Below are positions 6,888 to 11,479 of a stretch of 64,000 bases of DNA, piece by piece (the first letter of the stretch is position 1; every line of letters begins with the position of its first letter). The translations under genes and the position numbers were made by a program. This DNA comes from Beggiatoa leptomitoformis (lineage in GTDB: Bacteria; Pseudomonadota; Gammaproteobacteria; Beggiatoales; Beggiatoaceae): positions 1,054,001 through 1,118,000 of the forward strand of contig NZ_CP012373.2 in assembly GCF_001305575.3 (NCBI RefSeq). The letters are read 5' to 3'. Under the pieces are notes generated by a model. That model worked only from the letters and a program-made list of their open reading frames with translations, searched no databases and had not been told where the DNA came from.

Positions 6888-8462
6888 ATGTCATCAGAAC
6901 AGCAAGATAGTTATGACGCATTACCCTATTTGTCTAATGTAATGCACTATACCCAGCCTTATCATATTGCGGCAATTGCGCAGTTGTTTGGTATGAATCC
7001 ACCGCGTCCTGAAACAGCGCGAATTTTGGAGCTAGGTTGTGCAAATGGTGGAAATATTGTGGCAACAGCACATGCTTTTCCGCAAGCTACGTGTGTTGGT
7101 ATTGAGTTGTCTGCCCGTCAAGTCGCTATGGCAAACGGTATTATTCAACATTTAGATTTGAAAAATATTGTTGTTAAGCAAATGGATATTTTAGACTTTA
7201 GCGAACAAGAGGGCATGTTTGATTATATTATTGCACATGGTATTTACACGTGGGTAACAGCCGATGTGCAGGAAAAAATTCTACGTATTTGTCAGCAACA
7301 TTTAAATCCAAATGGTATCGCTTATATCAGTTATAACACTAAACCCGGTTGGAATATGCGTGGCACTATTCGGGATATGATGTTGTACCATACGAAGTCT
7401 ATTAAAGACCCGCATGAAAAAGTTGTACAAATGCGAGCGTTATGGCAGTTTTTAGCAGAAACAACACAGGCAGGACGAGATTCTTATAGTCTATTTTTGA
7501 ATGAGGAATTCAAATTATTTGCAGAATTTGATGAATCTTATTTATTTCATGATTTCTTAGAGGCTGAGAATAATCCTTTATATTTACATGAGTTTGTTGA
7601 GCAAGCAAGTGCGCATGATTTGGTTTATGTGGGGGATACGTATTTACATACAATGTTAGCCAGCAATTTCCCGCCTGAGATTGCTAATACCTTGAGTTTG
7701 TTTAAAGATGATTTAGTACATCAAGAGCAGTATATGGATTTTTTACGCAATCGGCATTTTCGCCATTCATTGCTATGTCATAAAAATACGCCTTTACAAC
7801 GTGCTATTTCAGCAGAACGATTGATTAATTTATATGCTGTTTCTACCTTAGAAGAAGTGCAAGATACGCAAGTACCCGCAGGTAAAACCGTCTTTGCCAA
7901 TCGTTTGGGCAATTTGGTAACAGATAATCCTATTATTATTGCGGGATTACATTGTTTACGTGAGCAATTCCCACAGTCTATGCAGTTATCCGATTTAGTC
8001 GCACAGGTTAAATTACGCTTACCCAGCGATTTAGTCGTTGATAGTGCTACGATAGAACACAATCTAGCCGATATTTTATTACAGGTTTATACCAAGGGGC
8101 TGATTGAATTACATGCTTGTCCCTTGCCATTTGTCATTACTGTTAGTGATAAGCCTAAAGCCAGCACGTTGGCACAATGGCGAATCACACAAGGTATTAA
8201 AGCCTCTAATCTGCGTTTTGAAACATTGACTATAGAACATCCTGTTGGCGGTTTGATTTTGCCGTATTTGGATGGCACGCGAGATAGAGCGGCATTAATT
8301 GCGTTGTTACAAGAAAAAGTGAGCAGTGGCGAATTGTTATTTGATGTGAAAAAAGAAGGCAATGAAGTTGAATTGACGGCTGCACAAGCTCAAACAGTAT
8401 TAGCACAAGCCTTAGAGGAATCTTTGCAGTTGTTGGCAAGGTCAGCAATGTTAGTTGCTTAA
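6888..8462 (+). CDS. Class I SAM-dependent methyltransferase with methyltransferase regulatory domain
   Basis: 524 residues. The N-terminal third is a Rossmann methyltransferase with motif I ILELGCANGGN at about 46-56, an acidic ribose-binding residue in CVGIELSARQ, and FDYIIAHGIYTWV at the motif IV position. The central region (about 210-330) matches the methyltransferase regulatory domain often fused to such enzymes, and the C-terminal 200 residues look like a winged-helix module of the PKMT type (LPYLDGTRDRAALIALL). Relatives include enzymes thought to methylate lysines of outer-membrane proteins, but the substrate cannot be read from sequence. It is a single gene, convergent with rpoH across a shared hairpin. 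Confidence 0.8.
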   Translation: MSSEQQDSYDALPYLSNVMHYTQPYHIAAIAQLFGMNPPRPETARILELGCANGGNIVATAHAFPQATCVGIELSARQVAMANGIIQHLDLKNIVVKQMDILDFSEQEGMFDYIIAHGIYTWVTADVQEKILRICQQHLNPNGIAYISYNTKPGWNMRGTIRDMMLYHTKSIKDPHEKVVQMRALWQFLAETTQAGRDSYSLFLNEEFKLFAEFDESYLFHDFLEAENNPLYLHEFVEQASAHDLVYVGDTYLHTMLASNFPPEIANTLSLFKDDLVHQEQYMDFLRNRHFRHSLLCHKNTPLQRAISAERLINLYAVSTLEEVQDTQVPAGKTVFANRLGNLVTDNPIIIAGLHCLREQFPQSMQLSDLVAQVKLRLPSDLVVDSATIEHNLADILLQVYTKGLIELHACPLPFVITVSDKPKASTLAQWRITQGIKASNLRFETLTIEHPVGGLILPYLDGTRDRAALIALLQEKVSSGELLFDVKKEGNEVELTAAQAQTVLAQALEESLQLLARSAMLVA

Positions 8463-8510: not shown

Positions 8511-9380
8511 TTATGCGTCAATTACAATATTTTTCTTTAGTTTTTTCATCGCTTCACTTTCAATCTGGCGAATGCGTTCCGCAGAAACATTATATTTTGC
8601 GGCTAAGTCGTGCAATGTCGCTTTCTCGTCACTCATCCAGCGTTGCCAAATAATATCTTTACTGCGGGCATCTAAACTGGCAAAAGCGGTGTGCAATTGT
8701 CCATCGTTATGTTGTTCCCACTCATTTTCTTCAATCAATACAGCGGGGTCATAACGAACATCTTCTAAATAGGCCGCAGGGGCAAGCATTTCATCAGCTT
8801 CATCACTTTCTTCGGGTGGGTCAAAAGAAATATCGTTTAACCCCATCCGTTTTTCCATCTCTAACACGTCTTTAATACTAACCCCTAAATCGGTCGCCAC
8901 TTTTTCAACTTCTGCATGTGACATCCAACCCAAGCGTTTTTTTGAGCTACGTAAATTAAAGAATAGTTTTCGTTGTGCTTTTGTTGTCGCAACTTTAACG
9001 ATGCGCCAATTTCGCAAAATATATTCGTGAATTTCTGCACGAATCCAATGAACCGCGAAAGAAACCAAACGCACACCCATAGTCGGGTCAAACCGTTTGA
9101 CTGCTTTCATCAAGCCAACATTGCCTTCTTGAATTAAATCGGCTTGAGGCAAACCATAGCCCCGATATCCGCTAGCGATGTGTAAGACGAATCGCAGATT
9201 GGAGAGAATTAAAATCCGTGCTGCTTCTAAATCACCTTCTTTTTGCAAGCGTTCGGCAAGTTCTCGTTCTTCTTCCGCGCTTAACATCGGCACCGTTTTT
9301 ACCGCTCTGGCATAACGGTCGACATCGTGACTGAGTACAGCTAATTGACTATCGATATTTAAAGCGAGTGCATTTGACAT
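8511..9380 (-). CDS. rpoH: RNA polymerase heat-shock sigma factor RpoH (sigma-32)
   Basis: 289 residues, typical length. Region 1.2/2 carries [32 protein letters not shown] and [20 protein letters not shown]; the RpoH-specific box is visible at about 130-140 ([15 protein letters not shown]); region 4 ends in [23 protein letters not shown]. It directs RNA polymerase to heat-shock promoters. GGGAG lies about 10 bases upstream of the ATG. The leader holds a perfect CIRCE operator starting 24 bases before the start codon, which suggests that the repressor HrcA controls this gene. That would be a different circuit from the translational thermosensor and sigma-E control known in E. coli. Confidence 0.97.
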
Positions 9381-9404
9381 ATATTCTTATCTCCCACTTT
9401 CATT

Positions 9405-9431
9405 TTAGCACTCTCTCGAATGGAGTGCTAA
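9405..9431 (-). promoter_or_regulatory. CIRCE operator (HrcA-binding site) in the rpoH leader
   Basis: TTAGCACTC (9405-9413), nine bases, GAGTGCTAA (9423-9431). This is an exact match to the CIRCE consensus TTAGCACTC-N9-GAGTGCTAA bound by HrcA. It lies between the predicted promoter and the ribosome site of rpoH, where bound repressor would block transcription. Confidence 0.92.
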
Positions 9432-9442
9432 TAATGATTAAT

Positions 9443-9470
9443 AGCATAAGGATTATTAGAAAAAAATCAA
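9443..9470 (-). promoter_or_regulatory. Predicted sigma-70 promoter of rpoH
   Basis: On the minus strand TTGATT (9470-9465), a 16-base spacer, then TATGCT (9448-9443). Transcription would begin at about 9436, immediately next to the CIRCE element. Predicted by eye only. Confidence 0.5.
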
Positions 9471-9619
9471 GTCTATTTAAATGACAGATAATAAATACTC
9501 AGTGGTATAAATCCATAGATAAAAGGTATCATCACGTATTTCAAGTAAAATACATATTTATTAAATAAATGTGAATCGCTACAATGCGTATTACTACTGT
9601 TGTTTTATGGAGTTTAATA

Positions 9620-11479
9620 ATGAAAAAATACTTTCTCTTATTGAGTACGCTACTGTTAATGTTCAATATTAACAGTGCTTTTGCTAAAGCTGAAAAGGTT
9701 ACTATTTGTCATAAAGGCAAACACACCATTACCGTTTCAGAATCTGCACTGCCTGCCCACCTAAAAAATGGCTCAACCATTGGTGCGTGTGAGGATGATG
9801 GCAATGAGGATGACAGCACAGATGTAGATGATGACTTGGGAAATCCGACGACAACGCAAGCTGTCATCGTAGTTATTGTTGATGCAACGGGCAATCCTAG
9901 CACTGTTGGAACAAGCATTACTATCAACTTTTCTATCTTAACTGCAACGACAATAAGCAAAATTCCTGCCGCTGTTTTTGCTTTATTTAAAGCAGACCAA
10001 CTCGCTTTAATTCCTGAAGATGCTTTAGAAGGGCTGACAGTTGAACAAATTAAGTTCTTACGTCCTATCGCATTTACGGGTTTTACGGTAAAACAAGTTG
10101 TTAAACTGTCTATTAATATTTTTACGGTTTTAACAGCATCACAAGTTGCAGGCTTTGAACCTGAAACCATTGTAGGCTTGTCCGCAACTCAAATTGCTAA
10201 GATTAAACCCGCCGCTTGTATGGGGTTAAGTAAGTCACAAATTGCTGCCATTAATAAGGAAACCGTTAAAGGCATCACCGCAACGCAACTCTCTTATATT
10301 ACTTATACAGCTATTGGTGGTTTTAGTACCGCACAATTCCAAAACCTGAGTTTAGAATCTTTAGCAGGTTTAACAACCAGTAATGTTGCGGGATTAGATA
10401 AAGAAATTTATGGTGAAATGGGTAGCGAGCTTTTAACCTTATTGGGAACAACCGTTGTTTCTTCTTTAGCGTTAGAAGACTTGACAGTCATTGTTTTCAG
10501 TTTGGATTTTACTAAAGTTACAATTTCCACAATTTACAAATATTTACCCACAACTTGGATAATTAACCCTTTTAACGGCAAAATTAAATTCCCGAAAGGC
10601 AAAATTACTTTACCTAAGTTCAAGCTGAAAAAGAGTGAATCCGTTGTTGTTTCCTTACCTGAAGGTATTCCAGACTTAAATGTATCTTTAACACTGAATG
10701 AAGATACAAGTTTGCAAGATACGATTATCAATGTTGTGAACCGCACATTAATCAGCCTGAATTATGCGAATTTCACCGTTGCACAGGATGATGGTTTAAT
10801 CAGTGTGATGGGAACAGGCAGTGCAGAAGGCGTAGAATTATCCTTACTCCCTGATGAAGATGGCGTTGAGCAAGTTGATGACAATGAACCCGCTGGACTT
10901 ACCATTGATGATGAAGGCAAGTATTTACTCACGACGCTTGAGGGTATTCGCTTAACCTTAATTCCTGCCCCTCGTAAAACGGTTTATTTTAACAATATCG
11001 GTTTAAAAATTCGGGTCAAGAAGAAAGGCGAAGTGCGTTTAGAAATACCTAAGCTTAATCGGGTTGTTTCTGCGGTATTCTCACCCTTTATTGTCAAAGC
11101 ACCCGTAGGAATGGCGCAAGGCGTAACATTCAGCGAAGATGGCACTACATTATATGTGGTGTTTGAAGATGGCATGATGCAAACCGCATCACCAATGGTG
11201 ATAGACAGAGATATTATGGTCTTAGCACGGAATTTATTACCTGATGCGTTCCGTTATGGGGATTATAAGTTCCTAGCAAATGGCAAAATAAACTTTGTTT
11301 ATAATGGTTTATTGATTGAATCTAGCCCTACTTTTGATATTAAAATTGGCTATAGTGTCAAACGCTTAAGCCCTGTTATTAATCTGGTGAAAATGGCAGA
11401 AGAAGCGGATTTAGTAACCGAAGAGGGTGAACGTCAACTCTTTAAACTGCGTGTGATTGGTAAGCCTAGCGATTTATAA
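9620..11479 (+). CDS. Secreted protein with ten tandem 16-residue repeats (unknown function)
   Basis: 619 residues from the ATG at 9620, chosen because TGGAG lies 8 bases upstream and the protein then begins with a clean signal peptide (MKKYFLLLSTLLLMFNINSA, cleavage near AFA). An earlier ATG at 9584 would add 12 residues that spoil it. Residues about 26-58 form a small cysteine-containing module (VTICHKGKHTITVSESALPA) found in many secreted bacterial proteins, followed by an acidic linker. Residues about 108-267 are ten uninterrupted 16-residue repeats with pattern [ST]-x-x-Q-h-x-x-h-x-x-x-x-h-x-G-h, such as TASQVAGFEPETIVGL. The remaining 350 residues are beta-rich and not recognised. It is a monocistronic unit with a strong terminator. 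Likely an exported structural or surface protein; this is inference. Confidence 0.75.
   Translation: MKKYFLLLSTLLLMFNINSAFAKAEKVTICHKGKHTITVSESALPAHLKNGSTIGACEDDGNEDDSTDVDDDLGNPTTTQAVIVVIVDATGNPSTVGTSITINFSILTATTISKIPAAVFALFKADQLALIPEDALEGLTVEQIKFLRPIAFTGFTVKQVVKLSINIFTVLTASQVAGFEPETIVGLSATQIAKIKPAACMGLSKSQIAAINKETVKGITATQLSYITYTAIGGFSTAQFQNLSLESLAGLTTSNVAGLDKEIYGEMGSELLTLLGTTVVSSLALEDLTVIVFSLDFTKVTISTIYKYLPTTWIINPFNGKIKFPKGKITLPKFKLKKSESVVVSLPEGIPDLNVSLTLNEDTSLQDTIINVVNRTLISLNYANFTVAQDDGLISVMGTGSAEGVELSLLPDEDGVEQVDDNEPAGLTIDDEGKYLLTTLEGIRLTLIPAPRKTVYFNNIGLKIRVKKKGEVRLEIPKLNRVVSAVFSPFIVKAPVGMAQGVTFSEDGTTLYVVFEDGMMQTASPMVIDRDIMVLARNLLPDAFRYGDYKFLANGKINFVYNGLLIESSPTFDIKIGYSVKRLSPVINLVKMAEEADLVTEEGERQLFKLRVIGKPSDL
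9941..10420 (+). repeat. Region encoding ten 16-residue protein repeats
   Basis: The encoded segment divides into ten blocks of exactly 16 codons, for example SATQIAKIKPAACMGL, SKSQIAAINKETVKGI, TATQLSYITYTAIGGF and STAQFQNLSLESLAGL. The DNA itself has diverged between blocks, so this is an old protein repeat and not a recent DNA expansion. Confidence 0.85.

Follow-up and report, generated by a model that had tools for sequence, protein, structure and literature searches.

One of the two rpoH paralogs of Beggiatoa leptomitoformis is preceded by a perfect CIRCE element, which very probably serves as a working operator for the repressor HrcA through the mechanism proposed below. CIRCE in front of rpoH is a known arrangement, and the variant found here is its presence on one of two paralogs. 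In the reading that we consider best, the HrcA brake on rpoH would be old and inherited, and would survive on one copy of a duplicated sigma32 gene.

The window, by which we mean the whole analysed stretch of 64,000 nucleotides, contains a single CIRCE match when up to three mismatches are allowed, against a chance expectation of 0.03. On the rpoH strand this match reads TTAGCACTC-CATTCGAGA-GAGTGCTAA and agrees without mismatch with the operator form of HrcA/CIRCE systems, TTAGCACTC-N9-GAGTGCTAA; its arms are the same in the window and in another genome of the genus (G005), and its spacer is not. The perfect element described upstream of rpoH in the earlier note is thus confirmed: it lies 24 bp before the ATG of a gene, here called rpoH-B, whose score exceeds the curated cut-off of the equivalog model TIGR02392 (323.1 bits). 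The rpoH-B protein comprises Pfam sigma70 regions 1.2, 2 and 4, and its translation includes the RpoH box QRKLFFNLR. On the opposite side of the gene, and convergent with it, lies a methyltransferase gene (6888-8462, +) whose product has domains of regulatory and winged-helix type (PF10119, PF21782). The divergent neighbour (9620-11479, +) encodes a 619-aa protein with a signal-like N-terminus, for which no Pfam or NCBIfam match was found.

Features of the rpoH-B locus in the window (positions are those of the window).
Feature	Position	Strand	Basis
Promoter-like region, overlapping sigma32-type and sigma70-type	9443..9471	-	motif scoring; similar layout in family B copies and groESL promoters
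CIRCE operator, perfect consensus, at predicted rpoH-B transcript start	9405..9431	-	pattern match
GGGAG ribosome-binding site	9391..9395	-	read from sequence
rpoH-B, sigma32 paralog B, 289 aa	8511..9380	-	TIGR02392 399 bits; B clade

The remainder of the genome supplies most of the partners that such an operator would need. The gene hrcA, whose absence the earlier note had named as refuting its interpretation, is present (PF01628, 222.6 bits against a cut-off of 22.2), with grpE and dnaK recognised by eye in the translations downstream of it. Across the single contig of 4,265,317 bases, CIRCE occurs at three places with at most three mismatches (one place for the reversed control pattern): before rpoH-B (no mismatches), before groESL-1 (none) and before groESL-2 (two). 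The genome therefore has two CIRCE-bearing groESL operons, groESL being the expected co-member of an HrcA/CIRCE regulon. Of the further CIRCE sites that had been suggested, those before both groESL operons exist, and the search to three mismatches found none at the hrcA-grpE-dnaK cluster, so that a part of the usual HrcA loop is missing. Just before the CIRCE of each groESL operon (at 3073862 and 3965307 of the genome) we also observe a sigma32-type promoter scoring 12/13.

The second rpoH gene, rpoH-A, lies at 2028656-2029456 of the same genome and is without CIRCE. Among 42 genomes of the family, rpoH matches were obtained in 38, of which 30 have two copies and 8 have one. The tree of the 68 family RpoH proteins divides them into 35 B and 33 A sequences, and the window gene belongs to B. 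Once the tree is extended by 51 rpoH genes of other families, the family genes fall on one side of a branch with SH-aLRT 94 and A separates from B on a starred branch, which places the duplication of rpoH inside the window's family; all 51 genomes with rpoH sampled elsewhere in the class have a single copy. CIRCE (up to three mismatches, within 500 bp) precedes 27 of the 35 B genes as opposed to 4 of the 33 A genes. Three of these A genes are the sole rpoH detected in their genomes (G002, G014, G022), and the fourth is from G001, where CIRCE is on the A copy and missing from the B copy. On the 68-protein tree the CIRCE label changes 8 times, compared with 22.9 in shuffles, implying several gains or losses. 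The proposal that two heat-shock systems are wired in series in this organism is thus supported as regards the HrcA site on rpoH-B, and it is narrowed by rpoH-B being just one of two paralogs: given the second gene, the supply of sigma32 is not wired through HrcA alone, and rpoH-A could provide sigma32 regardless of HrcA.

Does the operator follow its repressor? The gene hrcA was detected in 31 of the 42 family genomes, some of the other 11 being incomplete assemblies. A genome-wide scan allowing two mismatches found CIRCE anywhere in 33 genomes, namely in all 31 with hrcA and in 2 of the 11 without. One of these two, G024, is 59% complete. In the other, G034, a second CIRCE is situated near a contig end beside genes that we take, by eye, to be nadK- and recN-like; the nadK/recN neighbourhood often houses hrcA, which makes a missed hrcA or an assembly gap plausible. 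This site is also the exception among the nine CIRCE loci away from rpoH that the genome-wide scan gave as loci, the other eight of which precede groES. In a set of 38 rows, consisting of the B genes and the three single-copy A genes, hrcA and CIRCE at rpoH are both present in 28 and both absent in 6. The 4 discordant rows are G034 and G024, with CIRCE and no hrcA detected, and G001 (where the A copy carries the element) and G007, with hrcA and no CIRCE. G007 has hrcA and a groESL CIRCE, yet none at its one detected rpoH.

The same association extends to the class, which in GTDB usage takes in the betaproteobacteria. Of the 56 genomes in an even sample of the class, 54 lie outside the family; rpoH was found in 51 of these, and all 51 leaders were read. 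In the 250 bp before rpoH, a CIRCE with no more than three mismatches is present in 30 of the 33 genomes that have hrcA and in 1 of the 18 that lack it (Fisher p 1.3e-9, relatedness ignored). The exceptions are three genomes with hrcA that lack CIRCE at rpoH and one, G055, with the element and no hrcA detected. A tree-aware test on 7 independent pairs on supported branches, which is underpowered, gave a median p of 0.0625; CIRCE follows hrcA in about 4.6 of these pairs, opposes it in 0.0 and shows no difference in 2.4. In G019, in which no hrcA was found, an inverted repeat with a longer spacer, TTAGCATTCG...CGAATGCTAA, occupies the position of CIRCE upstream of rpoH, perhaps a decayed or re-purposed operator.

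The breadth of the arrangement is apparent from titled genome contigs, which were scanned for CIRCE with rpoH codons behind it and gave at least 120 stretches; because the scan demanded CIRCE, it shows breadth and not frequency. Among the matches listed, rpoH directly behind CIRCE was verified in 118 of 120, the other two being from Bacillota. The record labels of these 118 among the matches listed are Betaproteobacteria (53), Gammaproteobacteria (50), other Pseudomonadota (9), Desulfuromonadia (2), and one each of another deltaproteobacterium, an unplaced record, Verrucomicrobiota and Chitinophagia. The last two of these listed matches look mislabelled or misbinned; their rpoH and that of the window share about 57% identity.

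The comparison lends good support to HrcA control of rpoH. Relatives in both the family and the class conserve the site, and the lack of conservation that had been named as grounds for rejection did not occur. The impression that rpoH is an unusual setting for CIRCE does not survive: this is the majority state in sampled genomes with hrcA, and by its sequence the predicted operator at rpoH is the usual arrangement in the sampled gamma- and betaproteobacteria that keep hrcA, not a local oddity. Where hrcA is absent, CIRCE is nearly always absent from rpoH, the exceptions named above aside. The core of the earlier interpretation (HrcA site, hrcA, groESL, conservation) is upheld, and it is the setting in which it was placed that proves too narrow.

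The promoter from which rpoH-B would be transcribed is less clear-cut than the operator. The proposed sigma70 hexamers, TTGATT (9470-9465) and TATGCT (9448-9443) separated by 16 bp, are present as described, with a sigma70 match of just 8/12. They are not among the 4 sites that a sigma70 scan with a filter of 9/12 returned, against 4.9 in shuffles; two other sites of that scan, at 9481-9452 and 9431-9402 on the rpoH strand, fall in the rpoH-B leader, which thus offers a 9/12 match in a different register. The same stretch as the hexamers also reads CTTGATT-N13-CCTTAT (9471-9446), a sigma32-type sequence scoring 9/13 against the pattern CTTGAAA-N11-15-CCCCAT. Among the 27 CIRCE-bearing B promoters of the family, 20 reach 9/13 for sigma32 (16% of shuffles) and 17 reach 9/12 for sigma70 (26% of shuffles), so that sigma70-like sequences are enriched too. 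Many of these promoters show CTTGAT or CTTGAA followed by CC(C/T)NAT-like letters before CIRCE, a layout likewise seen in those family groESL promoters that were read. We read the rpoH-B promoter as being as much sigma32-like as sigma70-like, either overlapping or of sigma32 type, and no longer prefer a plain sigma70 promoter; the assignment in the earlier note is in this respect ambiguous. If the promoter is sigma32-dependent, rpoH-B would be self-amplifying under an HrcA brake. A sigmaE promoter was looked for as well and not found: the motif GGAACTT (one mismatch)-N15-17-TCNNA occurs in none of the 68 family rpoH leaders (250 bp), the window's included. No RpoE above the curated cut-off was found in the 42 family genomes, some of them incomplete, with weaker matches in 33; the E. 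coli control passes.

What could such a circuit do? The step in which GroEL is titrated is known from work on HrcA in other systems. HrcA, held active by free GroEL, would bind CIRCE at the predicted transcript start and block RNA polymerase. Once unfolded protein occupies GroEL, HrcA would become inactive, and rpoH-B and both groESL operons would be released together. Fresh sigma32 would then act on the sigma32-type groESL promoters and probably on that of rpoH-B itself. The outcome would be a feed-forward loop with self-amplification, ending once GroEL is free again. The sites, the genes, their conservation and the joint absence of CIRCE and hrcA are observed; HrcA binding, coupling to GroEL, sigma32 autoregulation and induction are our inferences.

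Among the alternatives, the one that survives best is that HrcA binds and carries little weight, rpoH-A supplying sigma32 while translation and stability dominate as in E. coli, where the level of sigma32 is set mainly by these two. The family does have two rpoH genes, and both paralogs retain the RpoH box (33/33 A and 29/35 B proteins) and the region 4.2 signature (32/33 and 34/35, respectively). Against this, CIRCE is retained at most B genes and is rare in genomes that lack hrcA, a pattern that implies selection for the element; we consider this alternative unlikely, though it deserves more weight than the others.

It appears very improbable that the main role of the repeat is that of an RNA hairpin in the leader of rpoH, as a stability element or a thermosensor, and not that of an HrcA operator. 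The CIRCE arms do form a hairpin in the predicted lowest-energy fold of the leader RNA, a second hairpin in the prediction has the ribosome site and the start codon paired with bases early in the coding sequence (folded stretch 9320-9437, -), and the whole leader stretch has a z of -1.79, 8 of 200 shuffles being as stable. The CIRCE hairpin, however, leaves the ribosome site uncovered, and the stretch around that site is no more stably folded than its shuffles (median z of 0.42 in 35 B leaders, -0.38 in the window). Throughout the class, both arms agree with the HrcA consensus in sequence and not just in pairing, and the absence of CIRCE from most genomes without hrcA also speaks against a hairpin-only function. 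Least credible of all is that CIRCE serves the divergent gene, which shares the intergenic region with rpoH-B but adjoins rpoH in only 2 of 71 locus rows whose flanks were examined (the window genome and G005), whereas CIRCE at rpoH is widespread in family and class and lies 24 bp from the rpoH ATG, while the divergent gene could start about 150-190 bp away. Both of these readings receive low weight from the fold and neighbour comparisons; HrcA repression of rpoH-B is the preferred reading.

Outside the family, the operator appears to be combined with a second input. The sigmaE -35 box is GGAACTT, and among the matches listed outside the family it is found at a near-fixed distance before CIRCE, at offsets of -15 to -17 in 44 of 78 leaders. 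We assembled 148 CIRCE-rpoH leaders from 117 among the matches listed (one of the 118 verified leaders was left out, its flank being too short) and 31 from the class sample, with no identical leaders shared. In these, GGAACTT (one mismatch)-N15-17-TCNNA is present in 75 and absent from 73. The -10 box lies inside CIRCE in 71 of the 75 and upstream in 4; of the 71, in the same combined set, 63 begin with the TC that ends the left arm, and the other 8 start four bases further on, in the spacer. When the upstream 45 bases and the spacer were shuffled and the arms kept, 300 shuffles averaged 0.53 and never exceeded 4. Since the TC of the arm comes from CIRCE itself, the independent indication comes from the last A of TCNNA, which is present in 44 of 52 leaders with the box at -16 versus 28 of 66 without a box at -12, -13, -15, -16 or -17 (p 3.4e-6 with relatedness ignored; matches listed plus class sample). 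Within 350 bp of rpoH in the class sample, the motif accompanies 16 of the 31 CIRCE-bearing leaders and 2 of the 20 that lack CIRCE.

These observations lead us to predict a sigmaE-type promoter overlapping CIRCE at rpoH in many gamma- and betaproteobacteria, where bound HrcA would cover the sigmaE -10 box. It is conceivable, if somewhat short of probable when taken as a whole, that rpoH ancestrally had two inputs that were later split between copies A and B. The ancestral gamma- and betaproteobacterial rpoH would have been a switch with a sigmaE -10 box built into the HrcA operator, envelope stress bringing polymerase and cytosolic folding stress removing the HrcA block. Lineages of the E. 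coli type would have lost HrcA, leaving the sigmaE input alone. The window's family would have lost canonical RpoE, duplicated rpoH and divided the inputs: copy B may have retained HrcA and acquired a self-amplifying promoter of sigma32 type, and copy A may have come under a sigma70 promoter whose IscR-like box would link this copy to iron-sulphur status.

The leader of rpoH-A in the window genome contains TTGACA followed by TACCTGAGTGTTACACT, a box that recurs with at most three mismatches in 19 of 33 A leaders and in none of the 35 B leaders. An IscR-like palindrome at 2029607-2029632 of the genome lies on the sigma70-type promoter of rpoH-A, and a similar box is seen in the leader of iscR (locus L195, about 1325-1350), a gene identified by TIGR02010 over its cut-off. 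A longer degenerate form of the box matches three places in the genome, rpoH-A and iscR with one mismatch each and a third place with three, and its reversed control has no match there; a stricter consensus finds rpoH-A only, at three mismatches. The degenerate form was drawn up with the rpoH-A copies and the iscR leader already in view, so the iscR match does not constitute an independent test. An IscR-type operator at rpoH-A is our guess.

How does this compare with known systems? The rpoH gene of E. coli has a sigmaE promoter and an RNA thermosensor, and its product belongs to the same sigma factor family as that of the window. A search for HrcA in 14 control genomes, E. coli included, gave matches in 7, of which E. 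coli is not one. The rpoH promoters of relatives with hrcA are often of the sigmaE type GGAACTT-N15-17-TCNNA, which likens them to E. coli, whereas the window's family differs from it in having neither RpoE over the cut-off nor a sigmaE-type motif before rpoH. Part of what we describe may already be contained in the 2003 survey of beta-, gamma- and epsilon-proteobacteria by Permina and Gelfand (cited in PMC545781) or in the 2007 work of Ueki and Lovley on RpoH of Geobacter sulfurreducens (cited in PMC2725144). Our literature search, which covered mostly openly available papers, returned no statement of a class-wide rule linking CIRCE to rpoH, nothing joining HrcA, sigmaE and rpoH, and nothing on rpoH of Beggiatoa.

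The closest precedent is G. sulfurreducens, for which CIRCE before rpoH was predicted by sequence in 2004; the accessible part of that paper gives perfect elements at rpoH (position -51) and groESL (PMC545781). That organism is a deltaproteobacterium and, in the same part of the source, also has CIRCE at hrcA-grpE-dnaK-dnaJ and one rpoH row, as opposed to the two rpoH paralogs and the CIRCE-free hrcA of the window genome. With the classic HrcA/CIRCE regulon of groESL and hrcA-dnaK (described in part in PMC545781) the window genome shares the operator consensus, the repressor family and groESL; it differs in having rpoH as an extra target and no CIRCE at the hrcA-grpE-dnaK cluster. Two RpoH sigma factors of differing behaviour are described for Sinorhizobium meliloti in the accessible part of PMC5745026, a likeness to the two heat-shock sigma factors here. 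S. meliloti is an alphaproteobacterium, whereas in the window's family the duplication lies within one family and CIRCE is on one copy. In the literature covered, including the accessible parts of PMC545781, PMC10696704 and PMC2725144, no report was found of a sigmaE -10 box within CIRCE.

Descriptions of how the master regulator of the heat-shock response is controlled at transcription usually draw on E. coli, an organism without HrcA. Our comparison suggests that rpoH control in E. coli is a remnant left after the loss of HrcA, and also that a repressor sensing the chaperonin feeds straight into sigma32 in most of the sampled relatives that have hrcA. The duplicated rpoH of the window's family shows how such inputs may have been shared between two genes.
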